The notes below the pieces were generated by a model, which was not told where the DNA came from, made no database searches, and was given only the letters and a program-made list of their open reading frames with translations. This document shows positions 932-5,992 of a stretch of 6,459 nt of DNA, piece after piece (the first letter of the stretch is position 1; every line of letters begins with the position of its first letter). Location: assembly GCA_003694235.1 (NCBI GenBank), contig RFKO01000184.1, positions 1-6,459 of the forward strand, given 5' to 3'. Source of the stretch: Anaerolineae bacterium (GTDB taxonomy: Bacteria > Chloroflexota > Anaerolineae > Anaerolineales > UBA11858). Both the position numbers and the translations under genes were made by a program.

Positions 932-1573
932 ATGAATCCGGTAACCAAACGCCCTCTCGACGCATCTAAAGGGGCAGAACAATCGGAAGAGACATTCTCG
1001 CTCGCCGCGCTGCGTCAGGGCGATGCGGCCGAGTTCGCCCGTCTGGTGGACGCCTATTCCGGCATGATTTACCGGCTGGCGAGTCGCATGTTACAGAACC
1101 CTCAGGACGCAGAGGATGTCCTCCAGGAGACCTTCATCAAGGCTTACAAGGCACTGCCCGCTTTCGATGGCCGTTCGAAGCTTTCCACCTGGCTGTATCG
1201 CATCGCCACCAACGAAGCGCTGATGCTGTTGCGCAAAAAGACCTTGCCCACGGTGTCGGTCAACGCGCCGCTCGAAGACGCCGATCCTGAAGGCTTTGAA
1301 CTGGAGATTGTGGACTGGTGTTGCCTGCCGGAGAGCGAGCTGATGTCGGAGGAAGCGCGCCGTTATCTGGATGAAAGCATCGAGGCGTTGCCGGAAACGC
1401 TTAAATCGGTGTTCGTGCTGCGAGACCTGGAGGGACTTTCGGTGCGCCAGACGGCCGAAGTGTTGGGCATCAGCGAGGGAGCAGTAAAAACCCGCCTGCA
1501 CCGCGCTCGCCTTGCCTTGCGCGAGATGCTGACGGCATACTTCAAAGAACGATTACCCGCGAGTGGACTGTGA
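932..1573 (+). CDS. ECF-type RNA polymerase sigma factor
   Basis: This 213-residue sigma-70 family protein has only regions 2 and 4. Region 2 spans about 31-103 (DAAEFARLVDAYSGMIYRLA, then NPQDAEDVLQETFIKAY and the -10-binding segment FDGRSKLSTWLYRIATNEAL). Region 4 spans about 145-200 (LPETLKSVFVLRDLEGLSVR, then the helix-turn-helix ISEGAVKTRLHRARLALREM). The linker contains a vicinal cysteine pair (C130, C131). The roughly 20-residue N-terminal extension follows from the ATG at 932; no better start lies inside it. There is no ribosome binding site and the -10 box ends eight bases upstream, so translation may be leaderless. Its stop overlaps the start of an anti-sigma gene, the usual ECF pairing. 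The partner resembles RsrA, and thiol-redox genes follow, so a SigR-like role in disulfide stress is inferred. Confidence 0.93.
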   Translation: MNPVTKRPLDASKGAEQSEETFSLAALRQGDAAEFARLVDAYSGMIYRLASRMLQNPQDAEDVLQETFIKAYKALPAFDGRSKLSTWLYRIATNEALMLLRKKTLPTVSVNAPLEDADPEGFELEIVDWCCLPESELMSEEARRYLDESIEALPETLKSVFVLRDLEGLSVRQTAEVLGISEGAVKTRLHRARLALREMLTAYFKERLPASGL

Positions 1574-1833
1574 GCAAAAAAACGATTTCCCCCCCGCCTT
1601 CCTGTCGCCACCTGTTGGATACGCTGTCGGATTACCTGGATGGTGAATTGAGCGCAGAACTCTGCCGGGAACTGGAGCGGCATCTCTCCGATTGTGAGGA
1701 TTGCCGCGTGGTGGTGGATACGCTTCGCAAGACGATTGAACTGTACCGCGAGACGGTTGCCGAACCGCAACTGCCGCCGGATGTGCGCCTGCGCCTGTTT
1801 CATCGGCTGGATCTGGAAGAGTATCTGGAATGA
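1570..1833 (+). CDS. RsrA-like zinc-binding anti-sigma factor
   Basis: The GTG at 1570 overlaps the sigma stop (GTGA), which implies translational coupling. The 87-residue protein has no membrane segment and consists of a zf-HC2/ZAS fold: C12, C32, H38, C42 and C45, with the H-x3-C-x2-C signature H-LSD-C-ED-C. Recalled Streptomyces RsrA aligns over almost the whole length (DCSEILDHLYEFLD versus SCRHLLDTLSDYLD; both end with an R-L-D helix), and its C11, H37, C41 and C44 correspond to C12, H38, C42 and C45. RsrA's C61/C62 pair is absent. In RsrA, oxidation of the zinc cysteines releases SigR. The same redox switch here is an inference from the aligned residues and from the neighbouring disulfide-reducing genes. 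A terminator follows directly. Confidence 0.85.
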   Translation: MSKKTISPPPSCRHLLDTLSDYLDGELSAELCRELERHLSDCEDCRVVVDTLRKTIELYRETVAEPQLPPDVRLRLFHRLDLEEYLE

Positions 1834-1953: not shown

Positions 1954-2616
1954 ATGCCCGAATTGTTGAATCAAGAGATCCGTGACCAGGTCAAACAGGC
2001 GTTTGCCGACCTGCGCGAACCGGTGGAAGTGTTGTTCTTTGGCAGCGCGCAGGACTGCCCGTACTGCGAAGATACCCGCCAGATGGCAGAAGAGGTCGTC
2101 TCCCTGAGCGACAAACTCTCCATCCAGGTTTTTGACCTGGAAGCGGATGCCGAGACCGCGACGCAGTATCATGTGGATAAAGCGCCCACGCTGGTGCTGA
2201 CTGCCCGTAATGATGATGGGTTGAAGGATTACGGTATCCGTTATGTGGGCATCCCGGCGGGGCATGAATTCAGCTCGCTGATCCATGACCTGTTGCGCGT
2301 TTCCAGCCGCGATTCGGGGTTGTCGCAGCAGACGCGCGCGTTCCTCGCTACCCTGGATAAACCTGTGCACCTGCAGGTCTTCGTCACCCCTACCTGACCG
2401 TATTGCCCCCGAGCCGTGTTGCTCGCACACCAAATGGCAATGGAAAGCGATATGGTCGAGGCGGAGATGGTCGAGACCTCGGAGTTTATGGAACTGGTGC
2501 ATCAGTTCGGCGTCAGCGGCGTGCCGGACACTTCGATCAATCACGGCGCCGGCCGGGTGGTGGGCGCTGTGCCGGAGGAACACCTTTTGGCCGAAATTCA
2601 ACGCGTGGTTGCGTGA
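1954..2616 (+). CDS. selenocysteine-containing protein disulfide oxidoreductase (two thioredoxin folds)
   Basis: Starts at ATG 1954, with AGGAGG seven bases upstream. The 220-residue product has the length and layout of thermophile PDO (glutaredoxin-like) proteins: two thioredoxin folds in tandem, catalysing thiol-disulfide exchange in the cytoplasm. Fold 1 has C35-P-Y-C38 and a cis-proline at P78 (DKAPTLV). Fold 2 begins near residue 136 (PVHLQVFVTPT); its first active-site residue, 148, is encoded by TGA at 2395-2397, followed by P-Y-C151, a long helix, cis-proline P191 (GVSGVPDT) and the terminal GAVPEEHLLAEIQ segment. The frame is unchanged across the TGA and no residue is missing, so I read it as selenocysteine (U148-P-Y-C151). 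A stem-loop at 2402-2441 could be the SECIS. Alternatives are a fresh nonsense mutation or a base-call error at a TGC/TGT codon. The second part has no credible independent start (GTG 2416 lacks a ribosome binding site). A glutaredoxin follows 24 bases later, and a reductase lies at 4568. Confidence 0.8.
2402..2441 (+). promoter_or_regulatory. candidate bacterial SECIS element
   Basis: Downstream of the in-frame TGA, CGAGC (2410-2414) pairs with GCTCG (2421-2425) around a six-base loop CGUGUU, and ATTGCC (2402-2407) pairs with GGCAAT (2436-2441) as a lower stem. Seventeen bases separate the TGA from the apical loop, and a G is present among the first two loop bases. Both fit the general bacterial SECIS model (loop about 16-37 bases from UGA, short apical stem). 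Short stems also arise by chance, so the evidence is supportive and not decisive. Confidence 0.5.
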
Positions 2617-2640: not shown

Positions 2641-2904
2641 ATGGTTGCCAAAAAGGAAAAAAACAAGTACCCGCGTGTTATCCTTTTCACCACACCGACC
2701 TGTACATTTTGCAAGAAAGCCAAACGGTATTTGCGTGAGCGCGGTGTGCCTTTCAAGGACGTGGATGTCTCGCGTGACCCGGCTGCGGCGCGCGACATGG
2801 TGCGACGCAGCGGTCAGCAGGGCGTGCCGGTGATTGACATCGGCGGCAAGATCGTGGTCGGTTTCGACCGCCCGAAGATCGATCGTCTGCTGGGGTTGAA
2901 CTGA
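2641..2904 (+). CDS. glutaredoxin family protein
   Basis: This 87-residue single glutaredoxin/NrdH-type fold starts VILFTTPTC, with the dithiol active site C21-T-F-C24, a positively charged helix after it (KKAKRYLRERG), the cis-proline segment GQQGVPVI (P63), and a C-terminal GFDRPKIDRLL where glutaredoxins bind glutathione or partner proteins. The ATG at 2641 has AGGAGG at 2623-2628 and a nearer AGGAA at 2634-2638. Known family roles are reduction of protein disulfides or of ribonucleotide reductase; the C-TF-C motif does not identify the partner. It lies between the seleno-PDO and the NifX-type gene, with gaps of 24 and 1 bases, so it is almost certainly cotranscribed with them. Confidence 0.88.
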   Translation: MVAKKEKNKYPRVILFTTPTCTFCKKAKRYLRERGVPFKDVDVSRDPAAARDMVRRSGQQGVPVIDIGGKIVVGFDRPKIDRLLGLN

Positions 2905-2905
2905 C

Positions 2906-3295
2906 ATGAACGGCAAAATCGCTGTCGTCACCCAGGAAGATGGCGAGCGCATCAGCAGCCACTTTGGCATGGCGCCCTACTTCCGCGTGTTCCAGGTCGA
3001 AGATGGTGCGGTGGTGCGGGACGAGCTGCGTCCCAAACCGCATCATGCCCGCCATCCGCACCATCACGAAGACCATGCCCATCATGGGAAGGGGCGCGGG
3101 CATCTGGGCGCGCAAATGGTCGCCGCGATTGACGATTGTCAGGTGTTGATTTGCGGCGGGATGGGAACGCCAGCCTATCAGCGCGCGCAGGCTGCCGGAC
3201 TGGAAGTGGTACTGGCCGGAGGAAAGGCTGTAGATGCGGTGACCGCTTACCTGAACGGCGAGTTGGAGAGCGATCTGCGACGGGTGCATCGGTGA
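2906..3295 (+). CDS. NifX/NifB-C-terminal-like (dinitrogenase iron-molybdenum cofactor family) protein, His-rich
   Basis: This 129-residue protein has the Nif11-unrelated NifX/MTH1175-type fold: KIAVVTQEDGERISSHFGMA at the start, YFRVFQVEDG, then GAQMVAAIDDCQVLICGGMG, and the final VDAVTAYLNGEL. In nitrogen fixers this domain carries iron-molybdenum cofactor intermediates. Stand-alone copies are common in non-fixers and most have no assigned role. A linker at residues 46-66 holds about ten histidines (HHARHPHHHEDHAHH), and C78 and C83 lie in the conserved loop, so binding of a metal or a metal-sulfur cluster is plausible. The start is one base after the glutaredoxin stop, and its own stop overlaps the next start (TGATG), indicating a tight operon. 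No nif gene is nearby. Confidence 0.82.
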   Translation: MNGKIAVVTQEDGERISSHFGMAPYFRVFQVEDGAVVRDELRPKPHHARHPHHHEDHAHHGKGRGHLGAQMVAAIDDCQVLICGGMGTPAYQRAQAAGLEVVLAGGKAVDAVTAYLNGELESDLRRVHR

Positions 3296-3873
3296 TGGCG
3301 AGACGAAGAAAACCGCGCTCACCTTTTGTGTTGATTTTCGCCGGCCTGGCGCTGATCCTGGTGGCGCTGGGCTGGCTGCTGGCGAATGGCAACGCCGCTG
3401 CCAATGACAGCGCCACAACGTCTTCGGCCGATTTCGTATCCGCCATCCCCGCAGCGGTGGACTTCCCCGCTCCGGATTTGCAGCTCTCCGATTTGCAGGG
3501 CAACCCTGTGGCGCTGACCGACCTGCGCGGTCAGTATGTGTTGGTAAATAACTGGGCGACGTGGTGCCCTCCCTGCCGCGCCGAGATGCCGGAGCTCGAA
3601 GCGTTCTACCAGGCGCACAAGGGCGAGAATTTCGTCATCATCGGCATCAGCGCCGGCGACACGCAGGCTCAGGTGGTGGACTTCGTGAACCGCATGGGCA
3701 TCAGCTTCCCCATGTGGCTGGACCCCGGCGAAAAGGCACTGCGCGCTTTCCGTACCAACAGCCTGCCCAGTTCGTTTGTGATCGACCCCCAGGGGCAGGT
3801 GCGTCTGGCGTGGACGGGCGCGATCAGTAAGGAAATGCTGGAAAAGCACGTCGCTCCGCTGTTTCAGCAGTGA
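3295..3873 (+). CDS. TlpA/ResA-family membrane-anchored thioredoxin
   Basis: The start is the ATG at 3295, sharing its A with the preceding TGA; the open frame extends further upstream but only inside the NifX-type gene. The 192-residue protein has a basic N-terminus (MARRRKPRSP), one membrane anchor at about 11-31, a short linker, then a TlpA-like thioredoxin domain: FPAPDLQLSDLQGNPVALTD, LVNNWATW-C91-P-P-C94, then IIGISAGD and the cis-proline L-P158-SSFVIDPQG. The anchor-in, domain-out topology puts the active site outside the cytoplasm. Family members reduce cytochrome c apoproteins or other exported disulfides. Here it would extend the cytoplasmic dithiol system across the membrane, with electrons probably passed by a CcdA/DsbD-type carrier that is not in this window. 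Confidence 0.9.
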   Translation: MARRRKPRSPFVLIFAGLALILVALGWLLANGNAAANDSATTSSADFVSAIPAAVDFPAPDLQLSDLQGNPVALTDLRGQYVLVNNWATWCPPCRAEMPELEAFYQAHKGENFVIIGISAGDTQAQVVDFVNRMGISFPMWLDPGEKALRAFRTNSLPSSFVIDPQGQVRLAWTGAISKEMLEKHVAPLFQQ

Positions 3874-3998: not shown

Positions 3999-4472
3999 AT
4001 GGATGCGAAAGTAACCTGGCATGGACGGATGACGTTCACCGGTACGGCGGATAGCGGCTTCGAGGTGCCGCTGGGGACTTCGCCGGCCGTGGGTGGAGAT
4101 AACGATGGTTTCCGCCCGATGGAGTTGATGGCTATCAGCCTGGCAGGCTGCACGGCGATGGATGTGATTTCCATCCTGCGAAAAAAGCGGCAGGAAGTGA
4201 CCGCTTACGAGGTGCGCGTGCACGCCGAGCAGGCCGAGGAGCACCCGCGGGTGTTCACCCGCGCTGTGATCGAGTATCACGTCACCGGCCGCGCGGTGGA
4301 TGAGGCCGCGGTGGTGCGCTCGATTGAGCTCTCCGCGGTGCGCTATTGCCCTGCCCAGGGGATGCTGGCAAAGGTGATGCCGATTGCCCTGCACTACTTC
4401 ATCTACGAAGCGCAGGAAGAGGGCGAACCCCGCCTTTTGCGTCAGGGAGAATATATCCCGCCGCAGGGTTGA
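3999..4472 (+). CDS. OsmC family protein
   Basis: This 157-residue protein is full length for the OsmC/Ohr superfamily. The conserved helix motif is RPMELMAISLAGCTAMDVIS with E42 and C51; the second conserved cysteine is C117 in VRYCPAQGM, spaced as in YhfA-type OsmC proteins. OsmC/Ohr enzymes are thiol peroxidases for organic hydroperoxides that use this cysteine pair and are re-reduced by a dithiol protein. A YhfA-like copy may have another substrate. The ATG at 3999 follows GGAGAGGG, just outside the right end of the MITE-like palindrome. Its place among dithiol reductases suggests it is one of their clients (inference). A terminator follows. Confidence 0.87.
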   Translation: MDAKVTWHGRMTFTGTADSGFEVPLGTSPAVGGDNDGFRPMELMAISLAGCTAMDVISILRKKRQEVTAYEVRVHAEQAEEHPRVFTRAVIEYHVTGRAVDEAAVVRSIELSAVRYCPAQGMLAKVMPIALHYFIYEAQEEGEPRLLRQGEYIPPQG

Positions 4473-4567: not shown

Positions 4568-5548
4568 ATGTTCAACTTAAGCCTGGGAAGCGAAGGGCAG
4601 GTTGATGCCCAACAATTGTTCGATGTCGTCATCGTGGGGGCAGGGGCGGCTGGTTTTACCGCCGGCATTTACACTGCCCGCGATGGCTGGAAAACGCTGA
4701 TCCTGGAAAAAGAGGCCAGCGGTGGTCTGGCGGCTTCCACGCACAAGATTGAAAACTACCCTGGCTTCCCGCAGGGAATTGACGGCTCTGAGCTGATGGA
4801 ACGTTTCCAGCAGCAGGCCGAGCGCTTCGGCGCGCAACTGGCGGAGTTCGACGCCGTGACGCGCATCGAGAAGAACGCCGCCGGCCTGTTCGAGATACAT
4901 ACCGAGAGCGGCAAAATGTACCGCGGCCGCGCCGTCTTGCTGGCCACCGGCAGCCAACCTAAGAAACTGGGCATCCCCGGCGAGGCCGAGCTTTACCCGC
5001 GAGGCGTTTCTTACTGCGCCACCTGCGACGGGCCGCTCTACGCAGATCAAGAGGTCGCCGTGGTGGGGTGCGGTAACTCCGGTTTGCAGGAGGCCGAAAT
5101 CTTGCTCCAATATGCCCGCAAAGTGACTTTCGTGGAGTACCTGGATCACTCGATTGCTGAGAAGGTTTTGCAGGAGCGCGTGCAGAGCAACCCCAAAGCG
5201 GTGTGCAAACTCTCTCATCAGGTGGTGGAAATCAAAGGCGAGCAGTCGGTTTCCGCGCTGGTGATCAAAGACCGTCAGAGCGGGCAGGTAGAGGAGATAC
5301 CTGTCGCGGCCGTGTTCATCTACGTGGGCTATCAACCGGATACGGACTTCGTGCGCGGCCTGGTGGATCTGGACGAGCATGGCTACATTCTCACCGATGA
5401 GCACATGCGCACATCGGTGGAGGGCATCTTCGCGGCCGGTGATGTGCGCGCCAACAATCTGGCGCAGGTGGCGGTCGCGGTGGGCGACGGCGCCAAAGCC
5501 GCGGTAGCCATGCGTGAGTATTTGCAGCGCCGCGCCCCTCAGGGGTGA
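4568..5548 (+). CDS. thioredoxin reductase-like flavoprotein (TrxB/AhpF C-terminal type)
   Basis: The ATG at 4568 follows AGGAGG by seven bases; the open frame runs further upstream but only through the OsmC gene and terminator. The 326 residues carry the FAD dinucleotide motif VIVGAGAAG (21-29), GGL and NYPGF segments, redox pair C150-A-T-C153 after RGVSY, a second nucleotide motif VVGCGNSG (165-172), and the closing FAD motif GIFAAGDVR. In NADPH-specific TrxB the second half has GGGDSA and HRRxxxR. Here these are GCGNSG and VEYLDHS, with Glu190 where NADH-specific AhpF has Glu. AhpF also shares the VLQ-x-(K/R) and GLEYRDR-like strands. NADH use is therefore inferred. The likely partners are the seleno-PDO and glutaredoxin upstream. 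The 3' end overlaps the convergent peptidase gene by ten bases. Confidence 0.92.
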   Translation: MFNLSLGSEGQVDAQQLFDVVIVGAGAAGFTAGIYTARDGWKTLILEKEASGGLAASTHKIENYPGFPQGIDGSELMERFQQQAERFGAQLAEFDAVTRIEKNAAGLFEIHTESGKMYRGRAVLLATGSQPKKLGIPGEAELYPRGVSYCATCDGPLYADQEVAVVGCGNSGLQEAEILLQYARKVTFVEYLDHSIAEKVLQERVQSNPKAVCKLSHQVVEIKGEQSVSALVIKDRQSGQVEEIPVAAVFIYVGYQPDTDFVRGLVDLDEHGYILTDEHMRTSVEGIFAAGDVRANNLAQVAVAVGDGAKAAVAMREYLQRRAPQG

Positions 5549-5564
5549 GGCGACTTTGGGCGCG
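5531..5564. terminator. hairpin at the convergent gene ends
   Basis: CGCGCCC (5531-5537) pairs with GGGCGCG (5558-5564), and a smaller stem, CCTCA (5537-5541) with TGAGG (5546-5550), can form inside. It spans both stop codons of the convergent genes and might act in both directions, but there is no T tract, so the call is weak. Confidence 0.3.
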
Positions 5565-5850
5565 GGCGGCGGATGTGCCAGATCACTTTGCCGATCACAT
5601 CCTGCGGCGGGATGGCTCCAAAGCGGGCGCTGTCCACGCTGTGAGGGTGACTGCCGGTGACGTACAGCCAGCCGTCCGCGTCCACGCGCTGCACGCGCTT
5701 GATCATCACGCCGTAGGCCGGGTGACGAAAGACGACCACCGCGCCGGGATGTGGTCTGCGGCTACGATTGCCGGTGTATATCACCACATAGTCGCCCGGG
5801 AGGTATTCGGGAGAGAGGCTTTCGCCCTCCACACGGATCACTTTCAGCAT
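5539..5850 (-). CDS. small S26-type signal-peptidase-like protease (nickel SOD maturation protease-like)
   Basis: The 103-residue reading from the ATG at 5850 has the S26 serine/lysine dyad: VEGE-S11-LSPEYLPGDYVV and, after the strand PGAVVVFRHP, VMI-K51-RV. Then come YVTGSHPHSVDSARFG (family form GDNxxxSxDSR) and a final IGKV strand. It lacks the N-terminal membrane anchor of ordinary type I signal peptidases. The compact, anchorless form and the RHP...IKRV pattern resemble the protease that trims nickel superoxide dismutase; no SOD gene is in view, so the substrate is unknown. An upstream TTG (5886) would add 12 residues with little conservation; the ATG has only a weak AGAAAG binding site. 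The 3' end overlaps the reductase gene tail to tail. Confidence 0.8.
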   Translation of the reverse strand: MLKVIRVEGESLSPEYLPGDYVVIYTGNRSRRPHPGAVVVFRHPAYGVMIKRVQRVDADGWLYVTGSHPHSVDSARFGAIPPQDVIGKVIWHIRRPRPKSPHP

Positions 5851-5900
5851 GTTTTTCGCTTTCTGAACGATCAAAGGGGCATGCAAAATATGAAGGCACC

Positions 5901-5992
5901 CTCCCGCAGGTTGTTGATGGCGCGCCAGAGGGGATATGGCTGCCTGTCCTGCACATTTGCGGCGAAAATTCGCATCGTCGAACCTGCGGGAG
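5901..5992. repeat. CCTCCCGC/GGTT repeat family, expanded copy 3
   Basis: CTCCCGCAGGTT (5901-5912) pairs perfectly over 12 bp with AACCTGCGGGAG (5981-5992), enclosing 68 bases. The arms match the two compact hairpins at 151-180 and 230-258 nearly base for base. The loop includes a smaller inverted repeat, GCGAA/TTCGC, near 5963-5974. It fills the gap between the GH114-like gene and the peptidase gene; I see no other feature in 5851-6026. Confidence 0.6.

Follow-up and report, generated by a model that had tools for sequence, protein, structure and literature searches.

The window, that is, the whole stretch of 6,459 nucleotides that was analysed, contains a gene cluster on the plus strand in which a gene for a protein disulfide oxidoreductase (PDO) carries an in-frame TGA. 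The features of the cluster are listed below, each with the evidence for its assignment.

932-1573, plus strand: ECF sigma factor, whose gene opens the conserved cluster (TIGR02937, 122 bits, cut-off 42.9; PF04542, PF08281)
1570-1833, plus strand: zf-HC2 protein, likely the anti-sigma partner of the ECF factor (PF13490, 40.5 bits, cut-off 22.2)
1954-2616, plus strand: PDO with two predicted thioredoxin folds, 220 residues when the TGA at 2395-2397 is read through (TIGR02187, solved relatives)
2056-2067, plus strand: first CPYC motif, intact, residues 35-38 (translation)
2395-2397, plus strand: in-frame TGA, predicted to encode selenocysteine (Sec) at the start of the second motif, U-P-Y-C (codon comparison across 150 listed relatives)
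2410-2425, plus strand: hairpin predicted to be a bacterial SECIS, with its stem at 2410-2414/2421-2425 and the loop CGTGTT at 2415-2420, 17 nt past the TGA (published model, alignment)
2641-2904, plus strand: glutaredoxin-like (Grx) protein with Cys, CTFC (TIGR02196, 93.9 bits, cut-off 88.55)
2906-3295, plus strand: NifX/FeMo-co-binding-type protein with a His-rich stretch (PF02579, 68.7 bits, cut-off 26.3)
3298-3873, plus strand: TlpA/ResA-type thioredoxin-fold protein (PF00578, 104 bits, cut-off 26)
3999-4472, plus strand: OsmC-family protein (PF02566, 65.1 bits, cut-off 27.5)
4568-5548, plus strand: thioredoxin reductase, the putative electron donor (TIGR01292, 353.6 bits, cut-off 343.45)

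The PDO frame opens with the ATG at 1954, just 3' of an AAGGAGG, and closes with the TGA at 2614-2616. A previous sequence-only reading had described a TGA where the second CPYC should have its first Cys, and an intact frame beyond it. Both observations are borne out by the translation, in which the TGA at 2395-2397 (ACC CCT ACC TGA CCG TAT TGC CCC) becomes U148 within TPT-U-PYC-PR, followed by 72 residues that include GVP and GAVPEE. The readthrough product scores 280 bits against the NCBIfam model TIGR02187 (cut-off 185), named PDO_seleno_TRX, with residues 7-217 aligned to model positions 2-208/209. It also matches the solved two-fold chains 1j08, 2ywm, 1a8l, and 2ayt (E about 1e-41 to 1e-42), and these chains together with the translation point to two thioredoxin-fold units, each harboring a CxxC-type motif. 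The nearest named relative is an Anaerolineales bacterium MAG with 77% identity, followed by Anaerolineae or Chloroflexi MAGs. The host is probably a member of the Chloroflexota of Anaerolineales type. Judged from sequence comparison, the product of the gene at 1954-2616 is a PDO with two thioredoxin folds, and the TGA at the first Cys of its C-terminal CPYC is very likely read as Sec.

The TGA codon and its counterparts in relatives

In a sample of 400 genomes of the order, 177 contain a PDO match. The 150 matches listed, which come from 149 genomes, were all examined, and one further partial copy, which stops short of the site, lies outside the codon count. The pairing of in-frame TGA with Cys in homologues, proposed earlier as a check on the Sec assignment, is found among these 150 listed matches, with TGA in 52, Cys in 98 (71 TGC and 27 TGT), and no other codon at the site. 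TAA and TAG, named earlier as evidence that would speak against Sec, occur at the site in 0 of the 150. No internal stop is present elsewhere in the PDO of these matches. Such a restriction of TGA to exactly one codon, with Cys as its only counterpart, is beyond chance.

Under a nonsense mutation or sequencing error, the gene would be a copy in decay, or the TGA would be a Cys codon altered in the assembly. TGA is indeed one base from TGC and TGT, and the host genome is a draft of 1.78 Mb in 344 contigs that is 81% complete. Nevertheless, this explanation is highly improbable, as the same TGA recurs in 52 of the 150 listed relatives (48-77% identity among the matches listed) with neither TAA/TAG nor another internal stop, and as the TGA genes possess a SECIS stem that is wanting in the Cys genes. 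Comparably improbable is a true stop, which would yield a one-fold protein of 147 residues and perhaps a second piece of 66 residues starting from the GTG at 2416. Mechanical gene calling does produce both pieces, and the protein database carries the 147-residue product of the window (P0051). However, the second piece would be devoid of the U/C-P-Y-C motif, the signs of coding continue without a break as far as GAVPEE, and the Cys-form relatives make a single protein. Entry P0051 exemplifies how routine gene calling truncates such genes.

Closer to the host, a PDO match is present in 8 of 21 genomes of the same family, and the seven matches that cover the site comprise six with one TGA and one with Cys (genome G011). 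In a sample of 400 genomes of the phylum, 52 of the 105 matches listed (101 genomes) contain one TGA, counted wherever it falls, and 53 contain none. Genome G342 of the order sample carries both PDO forms (L114 and L186), one with the TGA and the other without an internal stop, and two genomes of the phylum sample (G592 and G494) likewise have two copies each, of which one contains a TGA and the other is free of internal stops. In genus g223 of the phylum sample, the copies of G513, G559, and G574 have a TGA and that of G566 has none, which makes this genus a candidate for a recent Sec/Cys change.

SECIS hairpin and Sec machinery

The published model of the bacterial SECIS, as given in the available text of a 2026 review (PMC13188914), comprises a loop of 3-9 nt, a stem of 4-16 bp, a G within the first two loop positions, a distance of 16-37 nt from the UGA, and an MFE of at most -7.5 kcal/mol. 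The hairpin predicted in the window fits this geometry, with a loop of 6 nt, a stem of 5 bp, the G at loop position 2, and a spacing of 17 nt. Its MFE is -9.3 kcal/mol for 2398-2439, inside the limit, and -6.4 kcal/mol for the hairpin alone; all 52 TGA genes pass the limit when the better of two lengths is taken. The TGA genes share a six-pair stem, five pairs of which form in the window, the outer sixth (2409-2426) being an unformed C-C. With identical rows counted once, 96.4% of the cells in this stem are paired in the TGA genes versus 60.8% in the Cys genes. The full set of six pairs forms in 43 of 52 TGA genes versus 5 of 98 Cys genes.

The telling SECIS signal is synonymous covariation, in which a Leu codon tracks its pairing partner. 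When Arg CGA or CGG stands five codons past the TGA, the ninth codon is Leu CTC in 39 of 41 TGA genes; when Gln CAA stands there, the Leu codon is CTT (8 of 8), and when Pro CCA does, CTG (2 of 2). The remaining TGA row, Gln CAG with CTG, is unpaired. Watson-Crick pairing at the Leu-codon pair is observed in 49 of 52 TGA genes, a value reached in 0 of 20,000 shuffles, and in 25 of 98 Cys genes, a value reached in 5,125 of 20,000; the shuffles leave kinship among the rows in place. Of the six stem pairs, this is the only one that varies on both sides. The loop G is shared by 98 of 98 Cys genes and hence cannot tell Sec and Cys forms apart. Folding of a single 51-nt sequence gives no better result than shuffles (z -0.60) and is uninformative, and Rfam at gathering scores returns nothing in the window, which is no argument against a SECIS.

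The host draft encodes both tRNA-Sec (74.8 bits, cut-off 47; anticodon tca by ARAGORN) and SelB (640 residues; its pieces together score 349 bits, cut-off 242). Of the four genes that the sequence-only reading had named for inspection in the host, selB and selC (tRNA-Sec) were found, whereas the 81%-complete draft of 344 contigs yielded neither selA nor selD: selA has no match there, and the best selD match (L017) reaches 55 bits, under the cut-off of 125. By eye, the sequence of L017 resembles HypE, and it was therefore not accepted as host selD. Among the 21 genomes of the same family, selA and selD exceed their cut-offs in 18 and 14, respectively. Where selD exceeds its cut-off, in 14 genomes of the same family, the gene itself (L036-L045) carries a single in-frame TGA; Sec-containing SelD is a known form.

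The presence of tRNA-Sec with anticodon tca and of SelB, together with a site that is only Cys or TGA in the listed relatives and neighbouring genes that terminate with TGA, makes a reassigned code, in which the organism would read every TGA as an amino acid, the least credible explanation of all. TGA closes the ECF (1571-1573), zf-HC2 (1831-1833), PDO (2614-2616), and Grx (2902-2904) genes, and is therefore an ordinary stop here. Pseudogene or error, a split into two proteins, and code reassignment are thus all rejected on the evidence given for each, and the selenoprotein assignment is strongly supported by the TGA/Cys pairs in the 150 listed relatives, the SECIS with its synonymous covariation, and the host tRNA-Sec and SelB.

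Across the order, selA is present in 48 of 52 TGA-form genomes versus 81 of 98 Cys-form genomes. This difference is not significant (p = 0.14), and selA presence fails to separate the two groups. The four TGA-form genomes without selA (G000, G279, G355, and G392) all have tRNA-Sec. For one TGA-form genome with selA (G020), no tRNA-Sec was found at E 1e-9 among the 150 of 553 candidates scored. There is little support for Cys forms as a sign of lost Sec machinery, given selA in 81 of 98 Cys genomes; G011 (Cys form, 82% complete) was the only genome seen with no match for selA or tRNA-Sec and no selD above the cut-off.

In family f13, at least 14 genomes, with rows matched by eye, have selA in the same orientation as the PDO and about 3.5 to 5 kb 5' of it; regions L218-L224 (for example L218:2238-8356) belong to this group. 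The gene order in L218 is selA, a peptidase-like gene, TsaD, ECF, zf-HC2, PDO, and OsmC. Six of the seven selA-linked f13 regions compared have the Cys form and one (L219) has the TGA form.

Family relationships and Sec/Cys switching

The window protein had been regarded as a probable new selenoprotein, with Sec not known to have been described in two-domain PDOs. This claim is wrong, as UxxC in TIGR02187 was published in 2006, 2022, 2024, and 2026, and a new selenoprotein family is ruled out by this literature. In the available text of these sources, the 2006 paper gives Carboxydothermus hydrogenoformans and Symbiobacterium thermophilum as carriers of the family, the 2022 and 2026 reviews (PMC9312934, PMC13188914) catalogue TIGR02187 with UxxC and one Sec under ABB15282.1, and four sequences of the Sec-type family were added from Asgard archaea in 2024 (PMC11227280). 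Novelty is right only for the members in the Anaerolineales-type lineage. No statement on a Sec-PDO in Chloroflexota was met in the freely available text and in the titles and abstracts examined, and PMC5029168 makes no mention of Chloroflexi, AhpF, glutaredoxin or Anaerolinea. The PDOs of this lineage add a strongly supported clade to a catalogued, little studied selenoprotein family.

The catalogued Sec-PDOs (ABB15282.1 and the Asgard sequences) share with the window PDO the NCBIfam model, UxxC, and one Sec per protein, but belong to other lineages than the Anaerolineales/Chloroflexi PDO, the comparison covering model, motif, and number of Sec residues. The Cys-type thermophile PDOs 1j08/1a8l, presumably from Pyrococcus, and 2ywm/2ayt, presumably Aquifex-type, have two thioredoxin folds and two CxxC motifs as the window PDO does (E about 1e-41), but possess Cys at the C-terminal site where the window has TGA. 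Selenoprotein thioredoxins and glutaredoxins also contain UxxC in a thioredoxin fold; they are single-fold proteins, whereas the window PDO has its predicted Sec in the second of two folds only. Sec in these thioredoxin and glutaredoxin selenoproteins is said to raise efficiency, according to the available text of PMC13188914.

A quick maximum-likelihood tree of the 150 listed PDO proteins, with the Sec/Cys site masked, needs 29 Sec/Cys changes. With weak branches collapsed, at least 22 (SH-aLRT <80), at least 14 (<90) or at least 10 (<95) are still needed. Labels shuffled 200 times require 30 to 45 changes at the SH-aLRT 80 level, compared with 22, which indicates that Sec clusters by descent. 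The closest Sec/Cys pair (L079/L100) is 89% identical. From these data we consider it reasonably probable that the PDO, which usually belongs to a single conserved redox operon, is a hot spot for exchange between Sec and Cys, with at least 22 switches and with the SECIS won or lost mainly by synonymous substitution (Arg to CGA, Leu to CTC). Such dense Sec/Cys alternation in this order within a conserved ECF-sigma redox operon was not met in print. If true, paired Sec and Cys forms with identities of up to 89%, in related hosts most of which can make Sec, would represent a natural experiment on the retention and loss of selenium. Moreover, close Sec and Cys forms in mostly selA-bearing genomes would allow the benefit of selenium to the enzyme to be tested in one system.

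The redox gene cluster

In the proposed mechanism, the host tRNA-Sec and SelB would decode the UGA, assisted by the predicted SECIS hairpin that follows it at 17 nt. The resulting active site would be U-P-Y-C, in which Sec would make the attack; in many relatives, Cys would serve the same function. The thioredoxin reductase of the same cluster is the putative donor of electrons to the Sec-PDO, so the path may run from NADPH through thioredoxin reductase and Sec-PDO to protein disulfides or peroxidases as presumed substrates. In Sulfolobus, according to the available text of PMC7465337, thioredoxin reductase feeds PDO, and the C-terminal site of PDO is fundamental for thiol-transferase activity. 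The latter report agrees with the earlier suggestion that the C-terminal CxxC is the main PDO site.

The cluster was compared across 31 regions, some of which may represent the same genome and seven of which were picked for a nearby selA. ECF, zf-HC2, and PDO genes are arranged on the same strand in 27 of these regions, and an OsmC gene is located past the PDO in 25, often with Grx, NifX-type, and TlpA genes in between. As exceptions, the sigma pair is divergent in L237, and no such pair is present in L193, L195, and L198. A thioredoxin reductase gene was seen in the cluster only in the window and in L233 and L189, which represent its closest relative. The ECF sigma factor with its zf-HC2 protein suggests a redox- or stress-controlled operon.

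Several minor features were observed around these genes. The glutaredoxin-like protein (2641-2904) reaches 64.6 bits against the Uxx-star selenoprotein families, for which the cut-off is 66, and has an ordinary Cys here. On the minus strand at 5539-5886, a nickel-type superoxide dismutase maturation protease is encoded (TIGR02754, 68.6 bits, cut-off 63.25); the window genes scanned include no recognised superoxide dismutase gene. A 48-base stretch at 426-473 matches the beginning of the ECF sigma gene (986-1033) with 83% identity and is perhaps the remnant of a duplicated sigma gene. In addition, inverted GC-rich repeats (ACCCTCCCGC...) at 150-182, 228-260, and 5898-5913 flank the cluster, with 16 bases fully complementary across 5.6 kb.
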